Shown here one piece after another: positions 601 through 45,558 of a DNA stretch of 64,000 bases. Every line of letters starts with the position of its first letter. Positions within the stretch are counted from its first letter, which is position 1. Both the position numbers and the translations under genes were made by a program. The notes beneath the pieces were generated by a model. It searched no databases, was not told where the DNA came from, and worked only from the letters and a program-made list of their open reading frames with translations. Origin of the DNA: Mesodorylaimus sp. YZB2_4 (Eukaryota > Nematoda > Enoplea > Dorylaimida > Dorylaimidae); NCBI GenBank assembly GCA_030248295.1, contig JASANH010000072.1, forward strand, positions 248,001-312,000. Direction: 5' to 3'.

Positions 601-603
601 TAG

Positions 604-5029: not shown

Positions 5030-5098
5030 GAACTGTGGCCTCCCGGTCAGGGTTGTTGGCCCAAGCAATGTGTGACCAACGCCTTAACTAAGTGAGCC
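5030..5098 (-). repeat. tRNA-like SINE head (degenerate)
   Basis: On the minus strand the sequence begins GGTGGCTCACTTAGTTAAGG, close to an RNA polymerase III A box. A G/C-rich anticodon-like arm and a poor B box follow. Pairing is too weak for a functional tRNA, so a tRNA-derived SINE is the likelier reading. Confidence 0.35.
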
Positions 5099-5099
5099 A

Positions 5100-5410
5100 C
5101 CGCGGCTTTCTCGGAGTAATTTCTGCGTAAGGGTCCATTTATAAGTTCTTGGCAACTCTGCTTAATGGGTGGGGCTTGCCATAGTCTGACCGTGACTTAT
5201 GATCTGACCCTGGGCCAGGGACATGGTCACATCAGTGGATGCTAGCATTCGACAACAGGTTTTAACTGTTTAAAAAGTCATAACCCTTACGTTCCTCCAA
5301 CCGTAGTGAAGGATCTGACAGAAGCTGGTTTCCAGCTCTACACAGTATGACTTTGTAGCGGTATCATGTGAGGACTAGATGATATCGGGAACGAAATTGA
5401 AGTCCGCAAA
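5100..5410. repeat. Dispersed repeat, copy 1 (partner at 17.87-18.30 kb)
   Basis: Ordered short matches to 17,870-18,300 in the same orientation: GAGTAATTTCTG; an AATGGGTGGG block followed by GCCATA; and a TATGACT block followed by GTATC. Spacing is similar in both copies, so this is an old interspersed element. No coding capacity was seen. Confidence 0.5.
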
Positions 5411-5640
5411 CCACTGCTCACAGAAATTTAAGCAGGCCATTCACACATTCTGACGTCTTTTACGAGCAAATATGAATAACAAATTCAAATTTTAGCATTT
5501 ATGAATTTTTGCCTGTAAAGCTTCGTGAGTTATCTTGCGACGGGTGAGTCTTTTATTAATTTTTGACCATTATGGATAAAAAATATTGGGAAACCTTGAA
5601 CATAAGTGGAAAATTGACGGATTTTTCTTATTTGAGGATT

Positions 5641-7165: not shown

Positions 7166-7649
7166 AGAGTGGCATCAGAAGTGGGAATGAAATCTCTCCC
7201 GAAAAGGTCAGAGAAAAGGAGTCAGAGAAAATGCTTGTCGGGTCAGGTTTGGGTTTTGGATTTTAGGTTCCGAGGCAGGTCGGGAACACTTTCCTTACCT
7301 GATCGGACCTAGGGGCTGAATTCACAAAAAGCGCGGTGTGACTGAAAAGAATTGGGTGCAATTCGATCGAGGGTGAAGGGGCACACATAATGGCCTGAAT
7401 TCAAACACGATCGCCCATAACTAGGCGCGGTGGGGGCCTAACCCATTTAAGGCCACAGGCCAGGCTAGCTTAAACGCTGCTCGATGTTAATGGCCAAAAA
7501 ATTGCTACTGTAGTAAAAATCTAGCCATAATGATGCAGGTGCGTGTTTTCTCGCTTTTTATAATGTCGCAACTTTGTCGCTTCCCACGCGACTGTGATTA
7601 TTAGCGGACTCGGCCATATAGGGCCGTAATTCTGTCAGATGCAAAATGG
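7166..7649. other. Intergenic, no gene recognised
   Basis: No long frame, no repeat partner in the window, and no RNA-like fold noticed. Confidence 0.4.
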
Positions 7650-7735
7650 GTAGGGTTGGTTGCATACAAAATACGCATACTGTCCGCAAAGTTTGTGCAT
7701 CGTATTGAAATTTGGATGCGTATACAGTATGCGTA
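7650..7735 (-). repeat. Interspersed repeat rich in GCGTATAC, copy 1
   Basis: Shares GCATACAAAATACGCATAC and GAAATTTGGATGCGTATAC with the reverse complement of 51,040-51,205, and the second block with 23,545-23,675. Short palindromes of the GCGTATACGC type are scattered through it. It is an interspersed element of unknown class. Confidence 0.6.
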
Positions 7736-7737
7736 CT

Positions 7738-7852
7738 AAATTATATATTCTAAAATTATTATTATATAATTATTATATATAATATATATTATATATATTA
7801 TTATATAATTATTATTATTATTATATATTATTATTATTACATATTCTAAAAC
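7738..7852. repeat. AT-only microsatellite (ATT/ATAT)
   Basis: About 115 bp of pure A and T, dominated by TAT and ATT units. It ends the LINE reading frame abruptly. The sequence TATATTCTAAAA stands on one side and CATATTCTAAAA on the other, so the array may have expanded from within the LINE. Confidence 0.85.
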
Positions 7853-10340: not shown

Positions 10341-13300
10341 GTTGTCAAGTTGTCTGTGAATGTCGTTCCTCGGATTACTGGTAGCTTGCAGCGGTCGGCG
10401 GTCGGGCTTCAGCAGCTGGCTAGTCCGTTATACAAGTCTGTGCCTTTGGCTGACTCATTGCCTAATGGCACTGAGAATATGCAGTTGGACTTGCTCGTTG
10501 GGGGGCGATTATTATTGGGATTTCATTTCTCCTCAAAAGATTGAGGTCTCGCCCGGTCTGTATCTGGTCGCGTCTACTTTGGGCTGGATTTTGACAGGCA
10601 GGCAGGCGGGAGGTGATCGGACGTCTCCGTCGATCACTACACTGTTGGCTTCGCAGCTGGTGCTTAGCACAGAGTCTTCTTCATCGTTGTTGCTTGAAGA
10701 TCCTACACTAGCGGATAATATGGCAGTTTCCAAACTCTGGGATTTGGAGACTTTGGGCATTAAAGACCGTGTGGAGGATGTTGGAGATGAGGAGGCTCTA
10801 GAACAGTTCAATAAGACGATCGAATTTCGTGATGGTCGATATTTCGATACTTGGCCTCGGAAGGACAAGGCAGTTGATCTTCCGACGAATTTTCAACTTT
10901 CACTGGGAAGGTTGAATAGTCTTCTTCGTCGTCATAGGGAAGATTCTTGGTTTTTTGAGCGTTATCAAGCCGTTCTTGATACGCAGTTGGCGAGTGGCAT
11001 GATCGAGAAAGTCGATGACTCCAGTGTGACTGGGGACATCGTGCATTATTTGCCACATCATGCAGTCATCACGCCGCATAAGGCAACTACGAAGCTGCGC
11101 GTGGTGTATGATGGTTCCGCGAAGTCCCGAAAGGGCAGTCAGAGTCTGAATGACTGCTTGTTGCGTGGCCCCGTGTTTTTAGAAGATGTTTGTAATTTAC
11201 TTATTCGATTCCAATTGAGTCCTGTGGATTGGTGGCCGATATTGAGAAGGCCTTCCTGCAGGTGGGTCTGCAGTCGCCTGATCGGGATGTGACGCGGTTT
11301 TTGTGGTTGGATAATCCGCAGATTCTATCCACCGAGAATAATCTGGCGCTTTATCGGTTCACGCGCGTACCTTTTGGTATTATTTCTAGCCCGTTCTTGT
11401 TGGATGCTATCATCAAGTATCATCTAGCCAGGGATGGTAGTGGGGTAGCTGACACGATTTCGAAGAATATTTATGTCGACAACATTGTTGTGGGTTTCGA
11501 TTCGGACGGAGCCGCGTCTGCGTTCTATTCGGAGGCGAAGCGCATCTTTGAAGGTGCGTCAATGAATGTGCGCGAATGGGGTTCGAACTCGGCAAAATTT
11601 CTGGCTCAGGTGCCGGAAGTTGATCGGGTCTCTATTTCTGTTGTATCTGTGCTCGGATACCTGTGGGATATGGCTACTGATAATTTATCTATTGCCGCTC
11701 TTTCGAATTCGTCAGGTATTGACAATGAATCGCTTACGAAACGTATGGTGTTGCAATACATCGCTTCATTTTTTGACCCGCTGGGGTTCTTTTGTCCAGT
11801 CTTCGTTCCCGCGAAGGTGTTCTTGCAACAGTTGTGGGTCTTGAAAGTAGATTGGGACACTGCTTTGTCTCCGGAGATGGTCTCCACATGGAAAGGCATT
11901 GTGTCTGAAATGCGATCCTCTTCGCCGTTGAGCTTTCCTCGGTTTTGGGGTTTTCGACAAGGTTCGCAGGTTACGTTGCATTGTTTTTGCGATGCATCTC
12001 AGTCGGCTTACGGTACGTGCGTGTACATGTGCTTTAAGACTGACGGTGTCTTGGGCATCCGTCTCGTATTTTCTAAGGCCCGTTTGGCGCCTTTGCGTAG
12101 TCTTACGTTGCCGCGATTGGAGCTTATGGCTGTCAATATTGGGAGCAAAGCTTTATTGTCTGTTGAATCGAGCTTACCATTTCCTGTGCGTGAACGGTTT
12201 ATTTGGACTGACTCGCAGTGTGTGTTACACTGGTTATGTTCTAACAAGCCGCTTACCGTGTTTGTTCGAAATCGGATCGCTCAAATTAGGTCTGTGGCTG
12301 GGGTTCACTATCGATATGTTCCGACCAGAGAGAACCCAGCCGACTGCGCCTCTCGTGGGTGTTCAGCGTCTGGTTTGGTGGAGTCTCAGCTGTGGTGGCA
12401 TTGCCCGGTTTGGTTGACTGATAAGTCGTCATGGCCACCCACTGATTTTCTCCGTGCTCCCAGTGACTCAACTTGTGCTCAGGTTGCTCTTGAAGAGCAG
12501 GCCGTATTGGTTTCGGCCGTGGTAGACGTTGAGCCCCTTGTGGCATTGAGTGCAGTTGTTTCTCTTCTCTAACTAAGCTTCTTCGCGTAACCGCATATGT
12601 AATGCGATTCATCCAACGGATTCAACGGCGGTCCAGTGGACTCGATTGCGTTAATGGCGTCGGATATCGAGGGCGCAAGGACTCTCTGGATTCGGTTTGT
12701 GCAGCGGAAGCGCTTTGCAGATGTTTTCTCTGCCTTTGAGAATAAAAGGTTTCATCCATTGATCTCTGAGTTTGGTCTTTGGGTTGATGAGAAAGGTATT
12801 TTACGATGTGGAGGTCGTCTATCCAATTTTGGCCTTTCTGACGTCACTATTTTTCCGACTCTTCTCCCAAAGAGCGACCCTTTGACGACATTGGTTATTC
12901 GGCATTTCCACGAAACATTGTTTCATGTGGGTGTAGCGCACACCTTAGCTGCGATTAGGAAGGTATTCTGGATACCGTCTGGGAAATCGCAGGTCTTCAA
13001 GCTTATTCGGTCATGTTTGCGTTGTCGTCGGTTTGATGGAGGACCGTATAAGGTGCCTCATATGCCTGCCTATCCACAGTGCCGCATTGTTGCCTCACCA
13101 GCATTTACCTACACGGGTCTCGATTATTTCGGTCCGCTGATGGTAAGGGATGTGGGGAAGGTATGGATTTGTCTGTTCACGTGCTTATCGACGCGGGCAG
13201 TGCACTTGGAAGTCGTGGTGGACATGACCGCTGAGGAATTTCTCCTCGCGTTTCAGCGTTTTGTTGCCCGCAGGGGTAAGCCTTCTGCGATTTGGTCTGA

Positions 13301-14199
13301 TAGTGCCGCTAAGTTTAAGTTGGCGCAGTCGGCTCTCGACCTCGTGTGGAGACGCATTATCCGCGATGAGACGGTTCTAACTTACATCAGTGACCAGTCG
13401 ATCAAGTGGAACTTCATCGTCGAGAGGGCCCCCTGGCGCGGGGGATTCTATGAGCGTTTGGTGCGGATCGTCAAGCAGTGTATGCGAAAGAGCTTTGGTC
13501 GACTATGCTTTAGTCGCACTCAGCTTTAGACTCTGGTTTCGCAAATCGAGGCTGTAGTGAATTCGCGTCCGCTAACGTATGTCGGCTCTGACTTCGCTTC
13601 TGGTCAGGCTCTGACTCCTGCTCATTTCTTGTCGCTAAATGTGGGTACTGGAATGCCTGTAGTTGATCTGGCGGAGGCGCAGGACCCAAATTATGTGCAA
13701 GGGTTGTCTTCTTCTGATACGTAAGTTGCTTGACTCATGGAAGAAGGGTCAGAGGCATTGGGAACGTTTCTGGGAGCAGTGGGGCGATCAGTATTTGTTG
13801 AGCTTGGGAGAACGACCGCAACGTTATTTAAAGCAAGCTCGTGCGCGGTCTCCATTTGTTCCCGCGATTGGAGATGTTGTTTTTGTTGAAAATGAAGGCC
13901 CAAGTGGGTCCTGGAAACTAGCTCGTGTTCTGTCCTTGCAGAAGGATTCCGATGGGGAAATCCAGTCCGCGAAAATTGTATTGCCCACAGGGCATTCTGT
14001 CTTGCGCTCGTTAGCTCATTTGTACCCGTTGGAAGGTAGTAGCATCACTGACTCGGAGCAAGAGGCTCCTTCAGCGGAGGTGCCAGCTGCAGTCAGAGCC
14101 TCATCCACGACTAGTCGGAATCGTCTGGTCAGAGCAGCTGCTGCACAGGCTTTGGAGCGAGTCAGGGGTAGCCTTGAGGCGGAGGGCCTATCGGATTAA
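10341..14199 (+). pseudogene. BEL/Pao retrotransposon pol remnant, multiply frameshifted
   Basis: Begins in the C-terminal part of a Pao-type aspartic protease region (LDLLVG, then WDFISPQK and LGWILTG after a frameshift in the G-run near 10,500). RT follows: KLRVVYDGSAKS, a frameshift near 11,225, VADIEKAFLQVGL, and YVDN at the catalytic box. RNase H follows (CFCDAS, LPRLELMA, WTDSQCVLHWL, NPADCASRG). More frameshifts lie near 12,565 and 12,640. Integrase shows H...H and CLRC, LDYFGP, SDSAAKF and WRGGFYERLV; a TAG at 13527-13529 and a frameshift near 13,720 precede the C-terminal domain that ends at 14199. This domain order and the LPRLELMA box identify BEL/Pao. Gag is absent because the left end stops at the LINE. 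It is not functional. Confidence 0.92.
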
Positions 14200-23675: not shown

Positions 23676-24948
23676 AACAAGTCACACGAAGGAGAGACAG
23701 GCTCCTCCTGCATCAACACCAAGAATGTCAGACAGGCCTAACAAAAGACGAGATCGACATCAACTTCCTTACAGCACCGTTTTTTTCTCGTCATTTTTAG
23801 TCTTGATGTAGTTACAAAGCTTCACCAAAGTCGGATTCAACATATCGGCCGGAAAGAGAACGACCACGTTCTCTATCCCCTGAAGGTTCACAAGTTCCTG
23901 CTGTCACTGGAAGCAGAGATACTGCAACTTACCTTGCTCATTCATGCATGCCGTTCTCCTCAGAGTTGATCCAACTGACAGAGCCATTCGGCGAATCAGC
24001 GTCACGATGCATCGAACTCGAAGAACTTGGCGACGGACTAATGTAATCACCCAACAGTAACTTGCTTTGACGTCTATTGCGCCATGCACTTATCTTCCTT
24101 CTTCAAAAACTTTAGCTGTGATGACAAGCTTGAAACTTACCCTAGTGGGGCCAGCCGCATTCGAAATTCCCCTTATTTTCGAATTACATTCATTACTTTC
24201 GAGCCGAAACTTCCTCTTTTAACTTTGGGGCAAATAAGTTTTCTTGTTTGAAAATAGGGAAAAGGACAAATTACTAAGTGATAACAACCAGCCGACTGCG
24301 CGCGACGGCTGTGCACATCAAAATCGAACGATAAGGCGGATCGATGGTAAGCCCGTCTGTTTTTCGGAAGAAGCCCTGGCCATGGGGACTGTGTTCAGTC
24401 AGCCCTTACTCACAGTGCTCGAAAGAAGCTCTCTAAGCGACACTTTCTCCACATCTTGGTAAATCGGACCTAAATCCTTTGTTAGTCAGCACTGTTGTCG
24501 TCGGCACGTCATATAAAATTTAGCGCTCGCTGCCCACGCATCCCGTCAGCTATTCAGTAATGGTAGTAGCGGTAGCAGGTACCATCACTGAATGGCTGAA
24601 TGTGGAGAAGGTGCGAAAATCATGCCCCAGTTTCGAAGACAAAAGCTAATCAGGTAGACATGGTGACAAGGAGATAATGTCCAACAGTTGTCAAGGAGGA
24701 GCTTCTGAAAAATTAACATTCAGTCGAATGCTGACATCCTCACACAATTTCTGTACTCGCATCGGGAAAGAGCTAGAAAGGCGGTTGGTTGCGACTAACC
24801 AGAGGCCTTATCGGTGCATTGATCGATCGAGAGCCACTAGTCATCTCCCAACTATTAAGGCGATGCGTTTGTATCTTCTCATTCAATCTAGTTTGCTGTC
24901 AATGCTTGCACCATCACGATCAGTCGAAGGGCAGTGCTTATTGTTCTG
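23676..24948. other. Intergenic upstream of receptor gene 1
   Basis: Short frames only. A small inverted repeat (TTCAGTAATGGTA with TACCATCACTGAA, about 24,553-24,595) could form a hairpin. Similarity to the 41-kb locus begins abruptly at 24,949. Confidence 0.4.
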
Positions 24949-25090
24949 AGATTCTTGATAAAGTTTGTGACCCAGAGGATTTTAATCATTTTTGTGTGTG
25001 CAGTAGACAAACTGTACGAGGACTGTGAGAGGGGTTCACGCGTGACCGATCCGACAGAAGTGGCTCACGGATCCATGGGCTAATTCCAGC
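24949..25090 (+). promoter_or_regulatory. Conserved 5' leader of receptor gene 1
   Basis: Nearly identical to 41,107-41,257. Both carry GTGTGTGCAG followed by TAGACAAACTG, a good splice acceptor (at 25,002 here) that could close a 5'-UTR intron or take a trans-spliced leader. Both also carry a minimal upstream ORF, ATG GGC TAA (25,075-25,083), just before the signal-peptide ATG. No TATA element was identified. Confidence 0.5.
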
Positions 25091-28000
25091 ATGATACAAG
25101 TTCAAAGCAACATGATCAGATTTCTTGCGGTTGGCGTGGTGATATTTTTGATCAGTGACTCTGGCGAAGCTTGTAAGTGTTGTTTAAAATAGAGCACTTT
25201 TATCACAACGAGAGCAATTACAGAAAGACCATAAAACTTGTGTCCCCACTCACTTGTCACAGTCATACCCTATAAAACGCAATAGCTCTCACTTTTGCTG
25301 GGTGGTAAATAAATATGTTATGTTGGAAGATATATTTATTTCACATATTTTTCGACCTTCCAAACTCCCAAACTCGCCCATCCAAAAGTTGTAATAGTTG
25401 TTGTGATAGGGGCCTCAGGGCGTTCAAACTATTTGCATAATACAGTACATCTAATGTGCTCCGAATGCACAGACTTTTTGATATTATGTCTGTAAGGACC
25501 AGGATGAGACTGACAATTTATGTTCATGTTCCTGTTTTACCACATCACCAAACGCTTATGCGCACTCGAGGGCGAAGGAACACATTTTATCCGAAATTAT
25601 TCATGTACAGGCCCGTGAGTCGAACACTCGCCCATAACTGCGCGCCTGGCGTGAGAGGCAGACACCTACCACACACGAAGCCACGAAGACTCGTGTGGCC
25701 GATTCTACTCAACATAAGTCTCATTGTCAGTAGGTTGGCATGGTAGCTCTGAAGGAATAAGCTAGCATCGACACTCAGGCTGCGCCTCCTGACTTCACAC
25801 CAAGCATCACCCAGCTGCCTCGTACTGGATCTTTTTTTTCATTTTTCCCACGAACCCTCCTCTCGAACCGAGCCCTCAGTAAGTAATAAATTGGGTACAT
25901 CACTCACATGCTACCTCACTTGGCGCTTAGCCAGTGGCCGAACAGAATCATTAGGGCCCTATCGGTTGGCACCGCGTAGGCTGACTCATTGATCGAGCCT
26001 GACTCGGATCAAAACAATAATCTGACAGCAGGTGATGCACTGTATAGAATAGCAACTCTCTTTAGCTTCGAGACAACAACAAAAGCCCGCTCTAACAAAA
26101 CTCATTTATTTCGGTTTTGCTTGACAGGTTTTTTCTCTTTTTGCGCACAGGTAACGCCACGAATGTATGCGCTGGAAACCAAACCACAATCACCTACATG
26201 TACAACGATATCTGCTACCTGATTAACTTGGATGATGTAGACCAATGGAGGGGATTGACCAAACGCTGCCCGATCCTCACTGCTGGATATTCCAGACCCG
26301 CCATATTTAAAACTACAAACGACTATCTCAATGTCATTTCAAACCTACGGCAAAAAATGAATGCAAGCAAAACCGCTAATAATTTGGTCTGGTTGGGAGC
26401 TCTTACCGAATCTAAACCACCGAGTCGGTTGTCGGATTTTTGCTGGAAGGTTAATGGAGAGAATATTGATGGAGCACAGGTCACGACAGAGGCTATTCCA
26501 GTAAATACGTCAATCGTGGCTGGCGGTCCTCCATATGCTCTGGCTGCTGATCCATTCGACCCATTCAATTTTTACGCAGTGATGGTAACTGAAGGAAATA
26601 AGGACAGAAAGTTTCCCATGATTTGCGAATTGGGTATGGGATTTTATGACTTGACAAAATCGCGAAAATTTTTTATTTTTCATTGCAGGCTGCGGTCTGA
26701 GAGAGATGAATTGTCCACTAAACTCAGACTCATGTGGTGGAAAAGCATGTCTGTTTGGAAAAGCTGATATCACAATGACATCGACCAACTCAACGACTCA
26801 AACGACCTCCATGAGTAGCACTACAGAAAGCACGCAATCAACAAGCACATCTACAATAAGTACTGTTGATGCTACAATCTCGACAACTTCAGTCAAAGTG
26901 TCCAGCCCCTCATTAATCACCAGCATCTACCGAACAACCTCTCTAAATGGTATGACAACTGAGAGTCCAGCATCAACAACCACATCCACTACAAGTACTG
27001 CTAATGACACAACTTCGACTACATCAGGCACATTGCCGAACCCTTCAACGATCAGTAAAATCGGCCAAAGGACCTCAACGACCAGCAAAACAACAGAAAG
27101 CCTGCCATCAACAAGCACGTCTCCGATGAGCACTGTTGATGCAACAATTCCAACAACTTCATTCGAAGTGTCCAGCCCTTCATTGATCACCAGCATTTAC
27201 CAAACAACCTCTCTAAATAGTATGACAACTAAGAGTCCGGCATCAACAACCACATCCACTACGAGCACTGCTAACGACACAACTTCGACTACTTCAGTCC
27301 CATTGTCAAACCCTCCAACGATCACTAGCGTCAACCAAACGGTGTCACCAAGCAGTACAAAAACTGAGAGTCCTCATTCAACAAGCACATTCACCGCAAG
27401 CGCTGCTGATGCAACAACTTCAACACCTCTAGTCGCATTGTCAAACCCTACAACGATCACGAGCATCAGCCAAACCACCTCCACGAGCAGCATAACATTG
27501 GGGAGCCCACCATCAACAAGCACATCTACAATAAGTTCTGTTGATGCAACAATTTTGACAACTTCAGTCGGAGTGTCTAGCCCTTCATTGATCACCAGCG
27601 TCTACCAAACTGCCTCATTGAGTAGTATGACAACTGAGAGTCCAGCATCAACAATGACATCCACCACGGGCACTGCTGCTGGCACACCTTCGACTATTGC
27701 AGTCATATTGTCGAACCCTTCAACGATCACTAGCGTTGACCAAACGGCGTCACCAATCAGTACAAAAACTAAAAATCTTCATTCAACAAGCACATTTACC
27801 ACAAGCGCTGCTCGTGCAACAACTTCCACACCTCTAGTCGCATTGTCAAACCCTACAACGATCACGAGCATCAGCCAAACCTCCTCCACGAACAGCATAA
27901 AAATGGGGAGCTCACCATCAACAAGCACATCTACAATTAAATCTGTTGATGCCACAATTCCGACAACCTCAGTCGAAGTGTCTAGCCCTTCATTGATCAC

Positions 28001-31000
28001 CAGCATCTACCAAACCGCCTCATTGAGTAGTATGACAACTGAGAGTCCAGCATCAACAATGACATCCACTACGGGCACTGCTGCTGGCACACCTTCGACT
28101 ATTGCAGTCATATTGTCGAACCCTTCAACGATCACTAGCGTTGACCAAACGGCGTCACCAAGCAGAACAAAAACTGGAAGTCTTCATTCAACAAGCGCAT
28201 TTACCACAAGCGCTGCTGATGCAACAACTTCAACACCTTTAGTCGCATTGTCAAACCCTGCAACGATCACTCGCATCAGCCAAACCACCTCCACGAACAG
28301 CATAAAAATGGGGAGCTCACCATCAACAAGCACATCTACAATTAAATCTGTTGATGCCACAATTCCGACAACCTCAGTCGAAGTGTCTAGCCCTTCATTG
28401 ATCACCAGCATCTACCAAACCGCCTCATTGAGTAGTATGACAACTGAGAGTCCAGCATCAACAACCAAATCCACTACGAGCACCGCTAATGACACAACTT
28501 CTTCTACTTCAGTCACATTTCCAAACCCTTCAATGATCACTAGCGTTGACCAAACGGCGTCACCAAGCAGTAAGAGTCTTTCTCCAACAAGCACATCCAC
28601 TATGAGCGCCGCTGATGCAGCAACTTTGACACCTTTAGTCACATTTCACAACTCATCAATCACTAGCATGGGACAATCGGCCTCACTGAGCAGTAAGACA
28701 CATGAGAGCCCACCATCAACAAGCATATCCACTATGAGTGCTGTTGATGCCACAATTTCGACCACCTCAGACACAGTGTGGAGCCCGTCAACGATCCCTA
28801 GCATCGACCAAACAACCACTGTGAGCAATAAAACAACAGAGAACCCGCCATCGACAATCATAACCACTATAAGCGCTGCTGATTCAACAACTTTGAGTAC
28901 TTCAGCCACAGTGCCGAGAACTTCATTGATCACAAGCATCTACCAAATGGCCTCACTGAGTGGTATGACAACTGAGAGTCAAGCATCAACAATGACATCC
29001 AATACGAGCACTGCTGCTGACGCACCTTCGACTATTTCAGTCATATTGTCGAACCCTTCAACGATCGCCATGAGCAGCTTAACAACAGAAAGCTCACCAT
29101 CAACAAGCACCTCTACAATAAGTACTGTCGACTCCACAATTTCGACATTTTCAGTCGGAGTGTCCAACCCTTCAATGATCGCTAGTATCGACCAAGCTGC
29201 CCAGCTAAGTAGTACCACCACTGAGAGTCCGACATCAACAAGCACATTCACCATGAGCGCCGCTGATGCCACAACTTTAGCTTATTCAGTCGTTGTGTCA
29301 AGCCCCGCAATAATCACTAGCCTTGACCAAACTGCCGAGCCGAGTAGTGCTACCACTGAAAGTCCGCCATCAACAAGCACATTCACCATGAGCGCCGCTA
29401 ATGCCACAACTTTGGCCGATTTAGTCACTGTGTCAAGCCCTTTAATCACTGCTAGCATCGACCAAACCGCCCAGCCGAGTAGTACCACCACTGATAGTTC
29501 ACCATTAACAAGCACATTCACCATGAGCGCTGCTGATGCCTTAACTTCAGCCAATTCAGTCACTGTGTCAAGCCCTGCGATAATCAGTGGTATTGACCAA
29601 TCGACCATACTGAGCCACCAAGTTACAACAAACATTAACAAGCAACAGCCAACAAGTAAGAGTCCACCATCAATAAAAACATCTACCATGGGCGCTGCTA
29701 ATGCCACAACTTTGGTAGATTTAGTCACTGTGTCAAGCCCTTCAATGACCTCAATCATTGACAAGGATGACAAAAGCAAAACAACAGGAAGTCCTTTACT
29801 GATAAGCTCATCCAGTATGACTGCTGGTGGTGGAACCGCTTTAGTCACTGTGTCAAACTTCTCAACGATCACTAGCATCAACCTAAGAGCCTTGGCGAAC
29901 AGCACGAAAACTGAGAGTCCATCATCAAAAAGCGCATCCACTATGACTGCTGCTGCTACCATTGCACATTCATCACGATTGCTGTCGTTGCCAGCAGCCA
30001 CAAGTGTTAGCGACCTTGTATACTCAATGTTATCAGAAGAAGCCGCTTCCCCCAGAATTACAACAACTTCAAGCCTCGTCTCTTCTGCTCCTCATACAAG
30101 CTCTCCCGCTCAAACCTCACCTGTCCCCAATATATCCTCCCAAACACGTCCTCCAGCTCGGTCGACGTCAAGTGCGAGTTATATCCTTACTGCTACGACT
30201 TTAAATGATGCACTTCCGACTTCAAAACCACGCATTCCTGTTTCTACTTTTACTGTTCCTCCCAAAATTACAACAGCGTTTGCATTACCTACAGCAAACT
30301 TAGCACAAAGAGGCAAAAGCATTTCGACCACTTACACAACATCTTCGATTGAGGTACCAACGCCAACTTCGGCATTAATTTCCATGAATCCGCCAGTGTC
30401 CAAAACTAAACTGAGTAGCTTTGTCAATTCTACAACGTCGTCAAGCCTAGATTCGGCAACCGTTTTGCTCACAAACCACGCCATGATACCTGCGGAAACA
30501 TTTGACATCATTCCCTCCATAGTGACCAATCCCCAGACGATCGGGAGTGACAAAACTATCGGCACGACTTCCTCTACTTCAACCTCTAGTGCCACAACAT
30601 TGCGCACTGCGGGCACTTCTAGCAAAACTCTATCCTCTTCAACCTCTGTCGCCCGAACGACTGTTCCTGCAGGCACTTTAACGAGTAGCGCAGCTTCACC
30701 CAGTACAATAACCGACGCCTCGACAAAATCGAATAAAAAGCTACCTAGCCCAAAATCCACACCCTTATTGCCAGTAACATCGCCAGCTGCTTCATCACTG
30801 ATAGCAGCTACGCCCGCACTGACGATCTCTTCGCCAGTTGCCCTAACTAGCGAATTAATCCTTTCAATGATCCATTCATTGCCAGCAACCGATGCAAACG
30901 CAGAAGAAAAATTCGCATCCGCATTCGAATATTTTAACGAGAGTTCAGCCCAGGTGCTAATACATACGACAGCATCTCCAAAAAGTGTGATCAAGCAAGC

Positions 31001-33070
31001 AAGCACAGACCAAACAAAGATGGCAATTAACACAGGTTACACTGTGGGCAGTGCCAGTTATCAGCCACCTCGCACGCCCGCCAGCTTCTTCGAGGCAACC
31101 AGCCGCATACATCAAAAAGATGAAGACCAGATTTCCAAAACAGCATCATGGAGCATGTTCGAAGAAAATCCTGTTACGAAATTCCCAACTCCTACGACTG
31201 AAAAATATCGAAAAACTGAAATGCCGTCATCTTCTAGTAACAAAATAGCCTCATCAATGGGACAAGTGACTGACATTTCACCATATTCGGCGGATACAGC
31301 TGAGGCAACCACTGCAGTGGCAGCACGTACGGCTCATACGAGCGCAATGACTGCAGTCAATGATCAATGTAACTGGCTGTTGATCCATGCCTTCATCCTT
31401 CTTCACCACGAAACCTTTGATTTTAGGGTTTTGCGATAGCATCGAGTGGGGAGGATACAGCGCATGCAATGCAGAATGCGGGTATTCAGTGAAAATTCGA
31501 CAAAGAAAGCGGACTGCCTTCGTGGGCCTTAATGTTAACTGCCCAAACGAGACAATTGTCTGTGATGTCCAGCCTTGCGTAAGTGCCAAGAACGTATGGA
31601 ATATGCAGAACATGATGTTCAGATATTTCCAGAATCCGATGAGTCACGTCGAAATAATTGTCAGCGATGTCATGATGAATATCGGATGCATATGGATTCT
31701 GGTCAGCCTGGCTTTGGCGATAGTATCTTACTTCACTCTCAGGTAAATCGAGAGGGGTCTCCCGAACACCCATGAGTAAAGGTGTTATCAGATAACCTGA
31801 CAGGACCTTGAGGTGACTTTACGAGCAGCTCACAATAATGTATAAGCATTTTTTTGCTGATCTCGAAAACTAAGATTATGATCTTTTTGCACACTGACTG
31901 CACAGAAAATCAGAGAATTTGATGATGCTGCTAAATACTGTATACTCAAAAAAATTAAACTTGGTGGCTCATTTTATAATTGCTTTCGTATAAACAGCAA
32001 AGAAAAAGGATTCATGACAAATACGACAGAAGTACATGAAAATGTCATGCAGCATGGTGAATTTTTAGACATCATTATTTTTTGCAAGTTGTTCAAGTCA
32101 ATCAGGACATCAGCCTCTTCATGGCTCATCTGCTCGTTTCATTTTTGTCGATAAGGAACGATCGCCGTTACAGCCATGTTAGTCGCTACGTGACTATGAA
32201 ATTTTTTAATCGACATGAGCCCAAAATAACTTTCTGACTCTTTCTTTATTCTAGACTGTTTGCAAGCTGGCAGCCCTCGGCTTGCAGTATTTCTTCTCAG
32301 TCACATTTACACTGCAGGGCATTGAGGCCTTGCACATCTACACTGTCCTAACCGATGTGGTTGTGTCAGACCAGGCCTTGTTCAGCCCAAAACGAGCGAT
32401 GGCAGTTGCGTGGGGTGCGTAGAAACCTGCTGATCAAATTCAAGCTTCTTGTTAATTGACTTCTGAACGCCCATTTCAGGTGTCCCAGCTATTATAACTG
32501 GGGTGACAGGGTCGGTAGCCTTCGATAGACTTATGTCCAGCTTCTCGTAAGTCTTTTTCGTGTTCATCAAACAAGCTCTCGCAATATTTTTCCGCCCAGG
32601 TGCTGGATTAATTTGGGAGATACAGTTTTCCTGGCCACTTTTGTGTCCATTGCTGTTGTGGCTTTGCCGACTGTAATTATTTTGGAAGCCACTGGACATG
32701 GGAGAACTAAGAGAGAGACGGCTGTAGTTACATCATGCAGGTACATAAATTTGTTCCATTTTAAAAACTGTCGGTCAGATTATGCGCTGGTAATTCTAGA
32801 GTTGCGCATGGTGGGCTTTGCGCAGTATTCGGGGCCCAGTTCGCATCATGGGTTATGTCCGCCACAGCAATTTATTACCAGCGAATTTACATGTTTGCGA
32901 CAGTTTTTGGACTCAACGCCGCATCGGGAGTATTTATCTTTACTTATCACGTATTTTCGAACAAAAATGTATGCACTTCGATGCTTTTTGCAAAACTCCT
33001 TCTTATTTCTTTGTCTTTTTAGGCCCGTATTTTAGCCCGAAAGATGTTCAATTGGATTAGAATGCGTTAG
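25091..33070 (+). CDS. Receptor gene 1: lectin-like / mucin / TSP1 / 7TM (class B GPCR-like), about 2,066 aa
   Basis: My exon model, all GT-AG with consistent phases: 25091-25172, 26151-26633, 26689-31368, 31427-31578, 31633-31742, 32069-32177, 32255-32414, 32480-32546, 32600-32740, 32800-32968, 33023-33070 (TAG). Exon 1 is a signal peptide (FLAVGVVIFLI, GEA then Cys). Exon 2 (residues about 28-188) is C-type-lectin-like: five Cys, NNLVWLGAL, FCWKV, FPMICELG; no EPN/QPD or WND calcium motif. Exon 3 holds a 4-Cys box (CGLREMNC, CGGKACLFG) and a Ser/Thr mucin stalk. Exon 4 is a TSP1 repeat (EWGGYSACNAECGYS). Exons 5-10 give seven helices with class B hallmarks: Cys at the start of TM3, WGVP in TM4, CW before TM5, LNAASGVFIF in TM7. 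The cytoplasmic tail is only about 16 residues. No GAIN/GPS module lies between TSP1 and TM1. It is probably a cell-surface receptor; its ligand is unknown. Confidence 0.85.
25540..25692 (-). repeat. tRNA-derived SINE in intron 1 of receptor gene 1
   Basis: The minus-strand head has GTCTGCCTCTCACG (a tRNA-Glu-like anticodon arm) and a B-box-like GTGTTCGACTC. The body shares TGTGTTCCTT and a GAGTGCGC block with the SINE at 34,140-34,316. It is absent from the 41-kb and 56-kb copies of the locus, so it inserted after duplication or was lost there. Confidence 0.65.
25832..26075 (-). repeat. Truncated solo LTR (BEL-type family) in intron 1 of gene 1
   Basis: Matches the LTR at 54,020-54,338 and the solo LTR at 56,322-56,858: CATTTTTCCCAC, ACATCACTCACATGCT, GTGGCCGAACAGA, and the terminal TTCGAGACA. 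The first 75 or so bases and about 300 bp of flank present in the 56-kb copy are deleted here. Confidence 0.75.
26790..30050 (+). repeat. Mucin-type tandem repeats of gene 1 (45-aa units)
   Basis: About 24 degenerate 135-bp units lie in frame within exon 3. The consensus protein unit starts S(N/S)PS(T/L)ITS and carries DAT(I/T)(S/P)T near its end. A 405-bp higher-order repeat (three units) is tandemly repeated across about 27,300-28,480, with very similar copies. The long minus-strand open frames here (for example 29,282-30,001) are by-products of the codon composition. The stalk is rich in potential O-glycosylation sites. Confidence 0.92.
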
Positions 33071-37342: not shown

Positions 37343-38218
37343 TTGTATCATGAATCAATCTTTTGTACAAGTCCACCTGGCATCACGAAAAGTGCGCCAC
37401 AATCACCAGCCACAGCTGACACAAATGAGACCACACTCATACCCTTTTATTATGGGGCAGTGCAAGAGCGAGCGACAGCATCTGTCAACTTGGCGAGAAG
37501 AAGTACAGCCAAGACAGCCAAGCACACGAGGACGAGTTTGCTTGACAGTATTTCTGGCCACCCGCCTAGCACACTCGACAGTTTCTTGAATTCGAGAAGC
37601 ATTTCAACTTCAAATCAATCGTACAAATTCACTTTAGCTGACCCCATATCCCAGATAGCATCATGGAACATGCATGAAACGACTTTTTTAAGCAAATTGC
37701 TGCAAGGAACGTCGAATGTAATTAACCCATTCCCTGCAATTCTAGAACCATGGGACTCAATGACACAGCGACCATGGTCAACGATACACCTAACTGTCAG
37801 CCCGTTTTTTAACCATCTCTTTTTTAGATTATCCTAATCTCATGCATATTTTTAACGACTATCAGCTCAGCTTTTCAGAATTTTGCAACAGCATTGCCTG
37901 GGAACCGTTCAGCGCATGCACAGCAGAGTGCGGGTATTCGGTGAATACGTCCCAAGATACCCCCTATTCGGTGAATACGGCCAAAGAATACGTACTGCTT
38001 TGATTGATCCCGACTTTTTTGCCCCAACGAAACTGTCGTCTGTGATGTGCAGCCATGCGCGAGTGGAAATGAGTCACCCATGATTTAGGGTGTTAAATGC
38101 TTGCAGATTTTCTAGAACCCAATGACAGAATTATTGCCAGCGATGTCATGATGAACATCGGATGCATATGGATTCTAGTCAGCCTCGCGTTAGCCATTGT
38201 CGTTTTCTTTGTTCTCAG
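37343..38218 (+). pseudogene. Relic of a third receptor copy: stalk end, TSP1 and TM1 exons
   Basis: 37,343-37,837 encodes a Ser/Thr-rich segment with LADPISQIASWNM, corresponding to the KTASWSM region near the stalk end of gene 1. After an acceptor at about 37,880 the TSP1 exon reads FCNSIAWEPFSACTAECGYS. It then has an internal tandem duplication (TATTCGGTGAATACG twice), a stop, and a frameshift before the CDVQPC end. The TM1 exon (38,116-38,218) keeps VMMNIGCIWILVSLALAIV and its GT donor but has a 1-base frame error at its start. TM2-TM7 exons and a lectin exon were not found nearby. It is dead or only partly retained. Confidence 0.75.
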
Positions 38219-38664
38219 GTAAATTAAGAGGCACGTGTCAGGTTTTTACACACAGCTGTACGAGCCAGGTACAGTATTTGGGCATAAGCACGTGGGCCAA
38301 TATGGATTTTAGGCTAGTTATTCCTGTCACACACAGAGGGTTTGACATAAAAAAGTCTGATCTAAACTTCCTATCCAAGCAGGCAAGAATAGCTTGGTTT
38401 GCTCGATAGTTCGCATTTTCTTTTGTTTTGAATACATGATCAGTAAGGGTTCTTGTGCGTTTTGCGTTGCGCATTTATTTTCACACGTGATATCGAGGGG
38501 GAGGGTTAACGTGCTATAGACTGCTGCAGTGGCACCCGCGGGAAATTTAAAAGTGCAAGCTGCCGAAACTGTGACTTGGTTTATTCAATAATCCATTGCA
38601 TGGTGCTGTCTTAAAACTCTGCAGCAACATTGTATTGGCTCCTTCACTTACCAGCGCCGCGTCA

Positions 38665-38750
38665 AAATTTAGCTGGCCCCATAATCAAACTAGCATCATA
38701 GAACCCAGAGCCCCGACTTTCCTGGCTGTACTCGCACTGTGGCCCGTGCT
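38665..38750 (+). pseudogene. Small duplicate of the receptor stalk-end sequence
   Basis: The sequence AAATTTAGCTGGCCCCATAA and the following bases are a diverged copy of 37,635-37,720 (LADPISQIASWNM region), with a TAG in place of the Trp codon. It is a short internal fragment only. Confidence 0.5.
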
Positions 38751-41106
38751 TGATGCCTGGTAAGGTCCCTCCCGTACCCTTGCCAACCAAAAACTCCATC
38801 TAGACAAATCAAGCCCTAAAAATTTTTTTTTTCAAAGCTTCGTTCGATGCCGAACGAAGGCTTTCTCTTTATTTAAAAATATGAGTACGTCTAACCGGCC
38901 CTGAAGCAAAATGTGTACCTCAACAGCAACTGATCTCTTAAATCATTGTAAAAGTCGACACGGCTACTTTCAATGCCGCACCCGTACCGCCATACCAGGG
39001 GGTTTTACAGTACGGCTGACGGTGGCAGGGTCGACCCTGGCATAAAACATGCACGAATTCACACTTTCAGCCAACTGCTTTGAAAGAACAAATTTACTTT
39101 TTTTCTGATTTACGTACTCTTTTTGCGCTGGACCATTTCGCAGATCTCCTGCAAGGCAAAATTTGAATTTCTCGCTGCAAAGCCGCTTATGAAAGTTGTA
39201 TATAGGTAAAAAGTTTATCACTTCAAAACTTGCGCGCGGCCCGTCCTCAAAAGATTCTTTAAATTGAATAGAAAACAACTTCTGTACTTTTTTTGAAAAG
39301 AAAACCGGTTTCAGTAAAGCCATGAATCAGGAAAACTGTCAACCAAAAATTGCTGTCATTACGACTAGCGCGCAGGTTTTCAAAGTGAGGGACTTTTTTT
39401 TCATGCAAAATTGTCATAAACGCCTTGAAGCGGGAAATTGGAATTTTTTGATGTATAGAGTCCTTGAAGTTGTATATTCTCGTCCATGAAGATTTTCACA
39501 AAGCCCGTATCTTCAGAGATCGATAGTTTGATGTGAAACTGTTAATGCGCTACGGAGGGGGAAGGTGGATGTGAACGCTTAGTTGCACCCACATTTTGTC
39601 TGCTGTCTGGAGCATTGCTGTGCTTCTGTGTTGCTCATCCTTTTAAAAATCTTTTTATCTTAAAAAAACAGCTGTATTATAAATAAAAAGTCATTAGCAT
39701 GCATAAAATATAACTTTTGGAATTTTCTCGAACGCTCAGCGTTGGATATGACAGAAAACAATATTGCTGCACCCTTTTGATTCGCAATACCTGGAGAGCT
39801 AAAATTCAAAAGCAGTATGCTCTTCATCATTTATTTTTGAGCAGGGAGAGCCCGAAAAATTTTAGCTGCAAATTTTGCTGATAGCAGTCCCGATCCACCC
39901 ATCGTTTGGATAGATCGGTTCGGGCAAAGAGCGAAGCTTTTTTAAAGCGAATACTTCCTGTATGGTCCGCCGAAGTGGGCGTGTATTTTTAGGGGATATA
40001 GGCGAAATGAATGAGAAGTGTGTGGGGGGTTATGGAGTCAAAACAACGCAGTTTTTAATGCACGTCCTTTGATATAAATGGTCCAACATGAAGCGTTGTC
40101 GGCATCAAAATTTATTGCCCTCTTTTCATATATAGTACGTTATTTCGCACTGACCCGCGTGAAATACTCGATATCGAGATATTTATCAAAAGCGTCATCT
40201 AAAGTGTGGACCCTGTAGAATATGGGTGCGCAAATTGAAGCAGCGGGAGAGGGGAGCTCTAATATGGTCTATTGGATCAAATTCTTTTGTAAAATCATGA
40301 CATTGCAGGTAAGACTTTGGAAAATCGAATTAGCTCGAATCGAATCGTTAGCTGAATTAGACCACCTGACAATCAGCAATCTGGATCCTAGCAAGGCCTT
40401 GATGGTTGCTAAGTCACTTGACAATGGCAAGTTCGCGCCCACGCAGGGTTTCCGAAGCGACTAAAATAATCTGCCACTGAAAGCTTCAATTCAGGAAGGC
40501 CGTAACTAATCGTGAGTATGTGCTTATGTTAATTGCGTAAAACCTACAGTATACGTGGGAGTAATCTGACTGAGTCTCTGGCTTACTGTTATCTGTAATA
40601 TTCGTTGTGGCAAAGAGGACGAACAAACAAGTTTCCTCTAAATGTACATGGATGTGGAAAAAGGACATTCTTGGCCTTATAGGAAATTTGATCTAATCGG
40701 GTGCCTAGTCAGACTGAGGCTACAAATGGGAAAAAAGTCGCTAGAACCGCAGGGGGCCATATTTATCTTGCATTTAGACCCATCAAACGCAGCAGGGCTG
40801 GAAGTAATACACAGTACACAGTATTTCCGACTAGCCAACAGTTTTCACAAGCAGAAGACTTGTGTCAGTTTCCATAATCTTCTGCATCTTTCCGGACTCT
40901 ATCTAATCGAGTTCAAATTGATCCTTTTCTCAGCAGTAAAGCCTAATGAATGTGAGCAACAGCAACAAAAAAGATTAGGTGTATGGATTAGTAATTTGTC
41001 ACAAAAGCATACTCTGTTGCTTGGCGCAACGGCCAGTCAACCACTCTTTCATGGTATTAGAATGAAATACTTGTTCTAATGGATTTCGTATTGAATTTTC
41101 CGACAC
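38751..41106. other. Intergenic, no gene recognised
   Basis: Two open frames, 117 codons at 38,970-39,323 (minus) and 145 codons at 40,642-41,079 (plus), show no domain, signal sequence or repeat partner. I treat them as chance frames. Confidence 0.4.
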
Positions 41107-41257
41107 GGAGATTCTTGATAAAGTTTGTAACCCAGAGAATTTCAGTAATTTTTGTGTGTGCAGTAGACAAACTGTGCGAGGACTGTGGGAGGGGCTCACG
41201 TGTGACCGATCCGACGGAAGTGGCTCACAGATCGATGGGCTAACTCTGTCATCCAGC
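41107..41257 (+). promoter_or_regulatory. Conserved 5' leader, copy at the lectin cassette locus
   Basis: Matches 24,949-25,090, including the acceptor-like GTGTGTGCAG and the two-codon upstream ORF ATG GGC TAA (41,235-41,243). Confidence 0.5.
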
Positions 41258-44200
41258 ATGATGCAAGTGCAAGGCAACATGATCAGTTTTCTTGTGGTTG
41301 GCGTAGTAATATTTTCGAGCGGTAACTCTGGCGAAGCTTGTAAGTGTTGTTTAAAATAGAGCACTTTTATCACAACGAGGGCAATTACAGAAAGACCATA
41401 AAACTTGTGTCCCCACCCACTTGTCACAGTCATATCCCATAAAACGCAATAGCTCTCACTTTTGCTCGGTGGTAAATAAATATGTTATGCTGGAAGATAT
41501 ATTTGAAGCACCCATTTTTCGATTTTTTTGCAATAGTTTTGTTCTTCTTTGACTTTTAATTGCCTGTAACAAAAATGCGCGTTATTAGGCCTGCTTGGCG
41601 GCGACATATGAGCGCCGGGGTCTGTTCGCGAACATACTCACCGAACCTGCTCAGACCAATTCCCACCGCTCACTTACATCCTTCTGTCGGGTCCTTTTCC
41701 ACGACAGAGCACCCAGAGTAACATGTGAGGATTGAGAGTACGTGCGATATTGGGAACTATCAAACGTGATCAGAGATAAGGCCCACGTTTGCAACAGGTT
41801 CATGAGTAGGGCAACAATTGTCTATCGTTATAATGATTATGAGCTTGTTCAACGGTGAAAATTATTTATCTGTGAGGACTGATCAATGGCGGCCAGCAGG
41901 AAGTCAGTTTTTCAGCTCCTGGAGATAGTGGATATCTCAGGGACTGTTTTGTGGAGAACGTTATTATACTTGCAGGGCAGGTCTCTCTTTCAATTGCGCA
42001 ATCTCCTACTAGGGCTGGAATTTTGATGAATGTGCAGCTTCGTAAGACCTTTTAGCAGCAATAGGGCACAACGAAATTCAGACACTGGGATGATTTGCGT
42101 GCTTGGTGCTTTTGACCCAATGCGTGGAATTTGTAAGTGCTTATCAATATTACTTCATGGTGAAGATGAATTTGGTGACTTATTCAAAGGACAGAATTTG
42201 GGTCTGCAAAGAAATTCGTTGAGCACTGGTTTTTCTCCTGGTGCAGATGTTCTCCACATATCCTCAGATTATCCAGCAGTTAGCCGAAGCAAAATAGGGC
42301 AAGGAACCTAAGTAACACATGCTCGGAATGTTAAACACACAAGTATATAGTGGCAGATAATATTTCAGTTCACATGCAGGAAAACTTTTTTCTCTCGTTC
42401 AGTCCCTGTTGGGGCATATTCTAAAAACAGTGTACAGAGTTTCAGCTCTTTGTCGTGAGTCAGTGAGTCATGAGTTGTGTCGTCTGCCAGATGGCCTAAA
42501 AACTGAGACATGCAACTTCAGGCAGGAAAATTGTAGTGACAACTATTTGAAGCCGAGTAAATTTTGAAGTTTCATTATAACTGCTCGTAAGAGTTGGCTT
42601 CATCTTGTGATTTATACATGAGGAAATGATCTATAATGTTTGACGTTTCGAATTCAACTATGGCTGAGCAGAAGCGGTCTTTAGTGCAAGAAATATACCA
42701 TTAATAAAAAACGAAAATTTACCTGTATAAGCTAAACCACAGGGATAGAAATCGGCACGCCACACCTGCCCATCAGTGATTTCTGTGTGGCAGCGTCACA
42801 TTTTGTCCAGTTTGAGTGCTTTAGAGTGCCGCAAGTTAGACTTCGCATCATGGTTGATTCTTGGCCAAACACTGACAGCGCATTTTAAGACCAGAAACTT
42901 GCACGGCTATGAAAACGTCGAAAAACAAGAGCTTGATATAGCTAATTCATAGTCAGGGATATAAGCTATAGGATTTAGCATGAGGGTATAGCTCGATTAT
43001 AGTCATCTGTTCGGTGATGTTCTTATATCTGACGTGTCCCAGGCTTTCGAGTGTTGACCCTCAGATGGTGCAGAGTCCGGGTGGTGGCACAGAGAGGTAA
43101 GGCGTCCGCTTTTTACAAGAGGTGGCTCGACTGGGTAAGAGATATTTGCCAATTTATGCGTCCTGTAGGCCTCGAGTTCACTGTATAGTGCTACACCATG
43201 AATAAAATATGACACGACGCGACATATCACTTCGATTGTTACATTTTAAAATCATTAATCATATTGAACGACTGCCTGACACAGACTGGCACTTATTTGG
43301 CAGCCTAATCAGCTCATTATGCTACAATTCAGTCTGCATATTGCCTAAAAACTGGCCGCTTGCCATACTTCTTATCAGCGCTTTTACCGAAGAGCGATTC
43401 ACCCTCAAAAACATTAATAAGCGCGTGAAATACTACACGTTAAAAAACGCAATGCAGCATCGCCGCCTCTTCAGCAGTTTAAAACGTACCCCCGGCCCTC
43501 CGGTTTCAGGAGTGCGGAATCCTTTTGCACTGCTGTAAATTCAAAATTTTCGAGACATGATAGAACGCGCGTGGAATGCAAGAAATCGCGCGCGGAATCC
43601 CGCTGCGTCAACAAGATTTCCTGAAACCCTGAATAGCGTTAGCAACAAACGCTCACCCGGCTAAGCTTTTGGAAAATCGACTTCATGAGCTGCTTTCAAG
43701 CATCTGGCAATTGACAGCGTGAAATCACTGTGCCAGTAGAGGATTTTCGTATAACTTGTCATCCTGCTCCCTGAGCGACTGAAAGCTGAATCTGCTAAAG
43801 CATTAGTCTAACAAAAGCGCCTTCGCGCCTTTGCCAAAGCGTTGTAAGCGCCTTTAAATAACTCACTCAACTTCTGCCCTTAATTATTTTGAATCACGTG
43901 AAAGAGATTTGATTCTCACATTGTTTGATAACGATCGAAATATTACTGATGATTATATGGGAACAAGGTTCGGATTAAATTATAACTTATGCCTGTCTTC
44001 GATGACGATTTAATGCAAATCATAATGTACTTCTGAAAAACGCTAGTGTTTGAAGCAAAATTGGAGTTCTTTCGCTGATTTTGATGTTCCATATTCTGAT
44101 TTTATCTTTGCAACTTTGTGTCAGGCTGAGCAGGTTAGAAACATTACTCACCAATTTAAATCTTGATTATCGCATTTAAAAACGAGCGTCAGTAGTCGAC

Positions 44201-45558
44201 GAGCCTGTGAATAAATTTTTGCTAGGAGCAGATTTGAGGATCAGCCCACAATCGATAATCGGTCACAAGACTGTGGGCTGATCACATGACCGCCCTTTGA
44301 TCACAATGTCCATGTCTGTGTGCACCCGATCAAACTTTAGTTAGATAGGCTGATCACTGCGTTTCTGGCCACACGCTCGAATAAGGACCAAGCAGCTGTG
44401 CAGGGTCCGATCAAGAAGATCTTAACTGGCTAGCTCCATCCAAGACCCATCACCCATCAGATGTTTTCCTCTTCCCCTGCGCAGGTGGCGTAGTTCAGTG
44501 GAAAAAGTCGGCTCTCAGCATAATTTTTGAATTTACCGCCAGTTACTGCGTACATGCGGATCACAATACAGTTTCGCAGCTCGTCGAAAAAAGTCCTGCT
44601 GGTTGACCCTTAATAGTATAGTCCAGGTTGACTTCTGATAGTGTTATATACTGACTGCATGAATGAGGTGTTCCATATTTCTAGCTCACTTTAAATGGCA
44701 CAAAGACAAAGAATTAGTTGTTTTATTTGACTGGTCGCGTGCATTTGACTGGTCGCATATTCTATGCATACATACAGTATACGCATGATCGCATATGTCT
44801 GCAGTATACGTGTTGCAGGCAATATTTCCATAGTATGCAACGACAACCAAAGTCAAATAGCCTACATGTACAATGATATTTGCTACATGATTCAGTTGAA
44901 AACAGTCGACACGTGGGTGAATGCAGCCGCCAGCTGCCCCATCACCGAGCTCGGTCACTTCCGTCCTGCAAATTTTGCTAACGCGACGAGTTATCAAAAG
45001 GTTATCGAAAACCTTGATCGGAAGATGAATGGGACTAGCGTAGCAGGTAGCTTAGTCTGGCTGGGGGCTCTGGCATCGACTGATGGACGTCTACTATATG
45101 ATTACTGCTGGATTTTTGTCGATGGGGTTATCCTCCAGACTGGGCCCCAGATCACTTCTGAGTCAATTTCAGTCAACACAAGTCTACTCACCGCTGGATC
45201 ATCTCCGTACGCCCTCGCTGCAAATTTTTCTGCGCCGTATAATTTTTACGCTGTTAGAAATGATGACGTTGGAAAGAAGTTTCCTATGATCTGTGAGCTC
45301 GGTGAGAATACAGTATACCTTACGAATAAAGTCAAGTCAAATTTATAGGCTGCTTCTAAACCACAGGCTGCGGTCAACTGTCAATCGATTGTCCAACTCC
45401 GTCGTTCAGGGGCGCTTGTGATGGGCACACATGTCCGTTTGGAGTTTTGAATACTTCGTCGTCTGCCTCAATAATATCAAGCACGACGAGCACACCGACG
45501 AAAACCTCGATTGCAGCAAGCTCCAATGTCTCTTCAACTGCTACAAGTTTACCGGAAT
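41258..45558 (+). CDS. Signal-peptide exon and lectin-like cassette, possibly the 5' part of receptor gene 2
   Basis: Exons: 41258-41339 (82 nt, signal peptide with FLVVGVVIF and GEA), 44819-45301 (483 nt), 45367-45558 (192 nt). The second exon is a lectin-like domain with MYNDICYMIQL, GSLVWLGAL, YDYCWIF and FPMICELG, exactly as long as the matching exons of genes 1 and 2. The third exon holds the 4-Cys box (CGQLSIDC, CDGHTCPFG) and a short Ser/Thr stretch. It ends in GAAT before a consensus gtaagt donor, phase 1. If the donor were unused, the frame would stop after three more codons. Phase 1 fits gene 2 exon 2 at 56,936, so these exons may belong to gene 2. A separate short secreted lectin-like gene is the alternative. 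Confidence 0.65.
41930..42640. repeat. Left arm of a 700-bp inverted repeat
   Basis: Reverse complement of 55,257-55,958 over about 700 bp, with scattered substitutions and indels. This arm carries a decayed version of a candidate exon: stops and an 11-bp insertion near 42,040. Confidence 0.8.
42641..43073. other. Intergenic, no gene recognised
   Basis: Nothing recognised. Confidence 0.35.
43074..43225 (+). repeat. tRNA-derived SINE
   Basis: The plus-strand head has TGGCACAGAGAGGTAAGGCG (A box) and GTGGCTCGACTGGG (B-box-like). The body shares TGTATAGTGCT and ATGAATAAAATATGACAC with the SINE at 34,140-34,316, aligned to its distal end. Confidence 0.7.
43226..44818. other. Non-coding stretch before the lectin cassette
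   Basis: No exon recognised. A short inverted repeat (ATCAGCCCACAA with TGTGGGCTGAT, about 44,236-44,283) could form a hairpin. If the 41,258 exon splices to 44,819, this is intron. Confidence 0.4.

Follow-up and report, generated by a model that had tools for sequence, protein, structure and literature searches.

We characterized a large receptor gene (gene A; positions 25091-33070, plus strand) and its relatives in the nematode Mesodorylaimus sp. YZB2_4, starting from a 64,000-nucleotide stretch (hereafter the window) of contig JASANH010000072.1 (positions 248,001 to 312,000, forward strand; assembly GCA_030248295.1). Gene A joins a C-type-lectin-like domain (CTLD) head, a mucin-like stalk and a single TSP1 domain to a seven-transmembrane (7TM) part. 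Judged from sequence, it probably belongs, on balance, to a multi-gene family of adhesion-type (class B2-like) receptors without a GAIN domain, in which TSP1, and not a tethered agonist, would move the 7TM part and which suggests a contact-recognition repertoire. No CTLD-mucin-TSP1-7TM receptor surfaced in the open-licence PubMed Central literature that we searched, in agreement with the first-pass annotation of this DNA, which did not know this domain order as a described class.

Gene A consists of 11 exons separated by GT-AG introns, and the spliced model is a single frame of 2066 amino acids plus a stop, the same structure that the first-pass annotation had given (about 2,066 codons). The exons are as follows.

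25091-25172, plus strand: exon 1, signal peptide with a hydrophobic N terminus
26151-26633, plus strand: exon 2, CTLD head, which fills the exon
26689-31368, plus strand: exon 3, Cys-rich hinge GCGLREMNCPLNSDSCGGKACLFG, then the Ser/Thr-rich mucin-like stalk
31427-31578, plus strand: exon 4, one TSP1 domain
31633-31742, plus strand: exon 5, NPMSHVEI linker and transmembrane helix 1 (TM1)
32069-32177, plus strand: exon 6, TM2, with an identical exon size of 109 nt in paralogues
32255-32414, 32480-32546, 32600-32740, 32800-32968 and 33023-33070, plus strand: exons 7 to 11, TM3 to TM7 and tail (Pfam 7tm_2)

The introns between the CTLD and mucin exons, the mucin and TSP1 exons, and the TSP1 and TM1 exons are 55, 58, and 54 bp long, respectively. 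The last of these happens to be an open frame in gene A; a model that lacked it and had an additional, false 34-nt exon was ruled out on both points by the paralogues. A TSP1 exon, a short linker exon and then TM1 had been proposed earlier; the order stands, but linker and TM1 form one exon. Spliced alignment at 18 loci recovered the same core introns from TSP1 to TM7 in 17 of them, with neither stop nor frameshift, within the limits of an aligner that accepts GT-AG introns only and can dodge a defect by a tiny exon. Of the loci counted as recovered, L034 required two tiny exons, and the last exons of L027, L028, L033 to L036, and L069, which follow unusually long introns, are doubtful.

The lack of a visible GAIN domain or GPS module, noticed in the first reading of gene A, extended to its relatives. 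A six-frame search of the genome with the GPS and GAIN models found neither at any of the 30 family loci listed (described below). Elsewhere, GPS matched 12 places at an E value of ≤1, seven of them beside 7tm_2 (on contigs C58, C72, C130, C249, C2, C16, and C1, the C1 match being below the Pfam cut-off), and GAIN gave six matches on four contigs (C58, C72, C130, and C249), one of them above the cut-off and none at a family locus. The models thus detect GAIN receptors in this genome, but not at the family loci. Furthermore, 16 members (two by eye) have 19 residues between the last TSP1 Cys and the TM1 Cys, and a seventeenth has 22, a spacing that leaves no room for a GAIN domain or a Stachel strand; by sequence comparison, the ADGRL3 chain appears to run for 17 residues up to a point that in the family lies five residues past the last TSP1 Cys. 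It is extremely improbable that these are conventional adhesion G protein-coupled receptors (GPCRs) whose GAIN domain has diverged beyond detection. Low sequence conservation of GAIN, as described in PMC11697300, would allow for this, but the 19-residue spacing, the complete lack of Cys in the long stalk of gene A, and the success of both models at other receptors argue against it. Besides, no HRM domain was found before TM1 at an E value of 0.01 in the 14 members scanned, and the ectodomain pieces scanned contained no Pfam family corresponding to the Mth ectodomain of Methuselah receptors. Because GAIN was looked for and not found, we file the family not as canonical adhesion GPCRs but as a GAIN-less variant.

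The TSP1 domain and the 7TM part were compared in an alignment of 14 members, that is, 17 members minus the near-duplicates gene B, L010, and L035, with some doubtful last exons trimmed. TSP1 of gene A scored 20.4 bits against Pfam TSP_1, just below the cut-off of 21.6; TSP_1 was matched in all 14 members, and the family profile matched thrombospondin-1 in the PDB with an E value of 2.1e-10. The six-Cys, Trp and Arg-layer pattern of TSP1 is present, with W7, C13, C17, R26, R28, C38, C45, and C50 invariant and C2 nearly so. The 7TM part matched Pfam 7tm_2 in all 14 members (49.8 to 53.2 bits; cut-off, 20.6) and is nearer to adhesion than to secretin receptors (ADGRL3, 3.8e-16; GLP1R, 3e-5), supporting the class B/adhesion assignment made at first reading; the TM3 Cys, WGxP in TM4, CW before TM5 (here SCW) and short cytoplasmic tail named there are likewise present. 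Fifty columns are invariant, and 41 of them lie beyond the last TSP1 Cys, including WGxP and the cysteines of TM3 and extracellular loop 2 (ECL2). A chance arrangement is excluded because this conservation, together with ratios of nonsynonymous to synonymous substitution rates (dN/dS) of 0.12 to 0.40 from TSP1 to the end of the 7TM part, indicates homology. A crude hydropathy scan (19-residue mean of >1.5) marked only five stretches in the 7TM part of gene A, so that the helix count of seven rests on homology. In an alignment by eye with ADGRL3, the family retains the residues read as W6.53 and G7.50 (positions 6.50, 6.53, and 7.50 numbered partly after PMC13197933).

According to a fold model, the head of gene A is a CTLD, sharing its fold with LOX-1 and struthiocalcin at 11 to 15% sequence identity. 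A Pfam scan of 23 family CTLDs matched no lectin family; the family CTLD profile matched four canonical CTLDs of the same genome weakly (probability, 10.6; E value, 0.0029), and its best PDB match was LY75 (E value, 0.17). The outer CTLD cysteines are kept, as in LOX-1 and struthiocalcin, and the inner pair is missing in gene A and present in distant paralogues (by eye). EPN/QPD and WND, the calcium and sugar motifs typical of C-type lectins, are lacking in the heads of gene A, gene B (a second copy in the window) and a copy on contig C708, and "lectin" therefore names a fold here and not a demonstrated activity. The C-type-lectin-like head assigned to exon 2 in the first-pass annotation accordingly stands as a fold. 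The stalk of gene A comprises 1533 residues (23% Ser, 22% Thr, and 7% Pro) with no Cys and 15 N-glycosylation sequons, is largely built of 45-residue repeats (135-bp period), and matched no Pfam family at an E value of 0.1. With CTLD, mucin-like stalk and TSP1, the family has the long ectodomain typical of adhesion GPCRs.

When the 145-Mb genome was searched at protein level, gene A turned out to be one of many; 120 of 191 candidates were scored, so that locus counts are lower bounds. The matches listed fall into at least 61 clusters, and at least 30 of these, with three or more exon matches each, are taken as family loci. The 30 loci listed are spread over 12 contigs, chiefly C39 (nine loci) and C83 (eight loci). 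TSP1 stands beside the 7TM part in 26 of them (the four without it are one on C215 and three on C39), and 19 have an exon of the CTLD family on the same strand no more than 16 kb upstream; for TSP_1, 150 of 214 candidates in the genome were scored. The copy on C708 may be an alternative haplotype instead of an extra locus. A 17-member tree gave good support to 8 of its 14 inner branches, and two of its subgroups mix members from C39 and C83. Outside this genome, protein database searches with a 335-amino-acid piece, a 14-row profile and a 1000-amino-acid piece gave no match at an E value of 0.001, the first two covering proteins of about 180 to 590 amino acids only and the word filter being liable to miss distant relatives.

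Using the NG86 method, we compared dN/dS at the TSP1-7TM base (10 pairs of five copies) and in the heads (15 pairs). The base gave 0.12 to 0.20 in nine pairs (e.g., 0.20 for A and B, and 0.13 for A and a C39 copy) and 0.40 for B and C708; among recent copies, the 7TM part alone gave 0.17 to 0.35. Recent head pairs reached 0.62 (A and B), 0.54 (A and C708), and 0.58 (B and C708), and the contrast between head and base had a Fisher P value of 0.02 for A and B and 0.013 for A and C708, with counts rounded and pairs not independent. Variable head positions number 46, with 31 falling in coil (84 residues) and 15 in helix or strand (76 residues); in the loop at 145-155, 8 of 11 vary. Tandem genes whose heads change fast while the base is conserved suggest, as far as sequence can indicate, a contact-recognition repertoire directed at microbes, food, mates or self/non-self.

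Several observations weigh against our reading of the family. Seven older head pairs gave dN/dS of 0.16 to 0.26, close to the base, and five further pairs were saturated in dS; the head of B and C708 did not differ significantly from the base (Fisher P value, 0.58). Because no pair showed dN/dS above 1, fast change of the heads is suggested but not proven to be selected. Besides, dS itself differs between base (0.08) and head (0.19), and genes A and B are 93% identical in their 3' halves, introns included, and 75% identical in their 5' halves; part of the head/base contrast is due to gene conversion or recent shared ancestry or exchange. A CTLD exon was not detected upstream of 11 of the 30 loci listed, and in a same-strand array such an exon may be a neighbor's, the 19 of 30 having no chance control. 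Finally, in the ADGRL3 alignment by eye, the glycine taken as G6.50 is replaced in the family.

The loci without a detected upstream exon would also fit two adjacent genes falsely joined, namely, a secreted or membrane CTLD-mucin gene and a separate TSP1-7TM receptor, and false fusion of lectin domains is a gene-prediction error reported for lancelets (PMC4967905). This explanation is nevertheless improbable. The mucin-TSP1 gap of gene A, hardly longer than that between its CTLD and mucin exons, leaves no room for a promoter, a start and a signal peptide. At this junction, A, B, and C708 share a phase-1 donor and acceptor about 60 bp apart, and reading by eye shows the same in the more distant loci L069 and L070, whereas the in-frame read-through of gene A is interrupted by a stop in gene B; it is splicing, and not the open frame, that is conserved. 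The order of CTLD, mucin frame and TSP1-7TM also recurs in L069 and L070, with three and four CTLD frames, respectively, before the long mucin frame. In two more paralogues mucin-like frames run into TSP1, which indicates closeness only, as in-frame introns are possible.

It is rather unlikely, moreover, that the protein is a glycocalyx or adhesion anchor in which a non-signaling 7TM part serves mainly to fix it in the membrane. The very short tail, the lack of a tethered agonist and the replaced G6.50 would be in keeping with such a role, but a mere anchor would not need the conservation seen in the 7TM part, in its invariant columns as well as its low dN/dS.

For the GAIN-less receptor family that we favor, activation could not use a tethered agonist, as there is no GAIN or GPS and no room for a Stachel. 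Instead, a stiff, glycosylated mucin stalk would hold the head above the cell surface, and engagement of the head or a pull on the stalk would move TSP1. Being tethered too closely to the 7TM part to swing freely, TSP1 might then shift the extracellular loops and TM1 to an active state. By analogy, this direct mechanism may have a precedent in published Stachel-independent coupling, for which growing evidence is described in PMC13062082. The same source calls GAIN and tethered agonist a hallmark of adhesion GPCRs; a family whose 7TM part is selected and amplified, with TSP1 in GAIN's place, would make the question of Stachel independence directly testable. The family also shows a route from an adhesion receptor to an expanded recognition family. 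A more far-reaching interpretation, possible though doubtful, is a lineage-specific innate-immune or self/non-self repertoire of fast-evolving CTLD heads on mucin masts, in which a conserved, TSP1-gated 7TM part replaced the GAIN/tethered-agonist switch and TSP1 acts as mechanical or allosteric trigger. If this is true, separate GAIN-less CTLD/EGF-7TM genes of the same genome would mean that GAIN gating was lost in the lineage on more than one occasion.

Adhesion GPCRs of class B2, among which ADGRL3 and ADGRD1 offer the nearest solved 7TM structures, share with the family the 7TM homology, the long modular ectodomain, the TM3-ECL2 cysteines and WGxP in TM4, but the family differs in that no GAIN or GPS was found, a Stachel has no room, TSP1 sits directly on TM1 and the tail is very short. 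ADGRB/BAI receptors carry several TSP1 repeats, followed by HRM and GAIN. They resemble the family in having TSP1 in the ectodomain, whereas the family has one TSP1 by TM1 and neither HRM nor GAIN was found. Human ADGRA1 is alike as an adhesion receptor without GAIN; to our knowledge, it has no giant CTLD-mucin-TSP1 ectodomain. The human protein (GPR123) is described as lacking GAIN, and GAIN is reported to be present in 84 ADGRA1 homologues from 47 species (PMC11697300). In the sponge Amphimedon, 12 of 40 adhesion receptors are reported without GPS; they share 7tm_2 without GPS with the family but partly have short N termini, and their models are possibly incomplete (PMC4302439).

Further family features in the window lie downstream of gene A, as follows.

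37881-38219, plus strand: third copy, a broken TSP1-TM1 fragment with stops in the exon; no full receptor recovered
41258-41339, plus strand: probable exon 1 of gene B (signal peptide; tentative assignment), 71% amino acid identity and 90% DNA identity, upstream DNA included (24948-25355 against 41108-41522)
44815-45303, plus strand: extra, unassigned CTLD exon, 51% identical to exon 2
56938-57420 (ends approximate), plus strand: gene B CTLD exon, 79% amino acid identity to A
57440-61837, plus strand: gene B open frame of 1465 amino acids comprising hinge and mucin
61890-63518, plus strand: gene B TSP1 and 7TM exons, 96% identity, no stops once the post-TSP1 intron is spliced

Gene B (56.9 to 63.5 kb) is apparently a second intact copy. 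We rejected its classification as a pseudogene because its stop falls inside the post-TSP1 intron. The remnants at 37881-45303 suggest that the first exon of gene B lies about 15 kb from its second. The broken copy at 37.9 to 38.2 kb, the orphan exons and the retroelements that crowd the window up to about 14 kb could point to decaying tandem duplicates without function; yet this is very improbable in view of purifying selection and, within the aligner's limits, the undamaged frames at 17 of 18 spliced loci.

The retroelements adjoining the receptor array (604-13529) begin with a frame that encodes reverse transcriptase (RT), RNase H and integrase (604-3882). Two RT frames are read from the minus strand (5732-6712 and 8105-10336), and at 11196-13529 a Pao-type frame with peptidase and RT precedes an integrase frame. 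Elsewhere in the genome, locus L083 (G000:C1:2479900-2484000; 186-3545) has two CTLD-EGF frames and then a 548-amino-acid frame in which EGF-like motifs immediately precede a 7TM part resembling 7tm_2; Lectin_C was matched at 1.7e-17 and 7tm_2 at 18.7 bits, below the cut-off, and the Pfam matches included neither GAIN nor GPS. A dense tandem Lectin_C array occupies G000:C21:899552-951984 (40 matches in about 52 kb). A telomere pattern attributed to Hypsibius had no match in the genome, nor did Lipocalin_7, which was likewise silent in the controls; the Lipocalin matches had no diagnostic value. Weak 7TM matches (21 to 26%) occur in single long frames of 370 to 1287 amino acids at C885:773, C130:773, and C253:738 and on C731, C159, C343, C688, C24 (two), C103, and C278. 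Three of them stand at nearly equal distance from the contig start, and together they are perhaps a multi-copy, intron-poor 7TM family on a repeat; two of them (C24:680777 and C253) have CTLD matches at a distance of about 5 kb or less. Besides, 15 COX1 matches with internal TGA, several also with TAA or TAG, were found at G000:C73:251445-254668 and on 10 further contigs; they represent either mitochondrial DNA copied into the nucleus or mitochondrial pieces that were misassembled.

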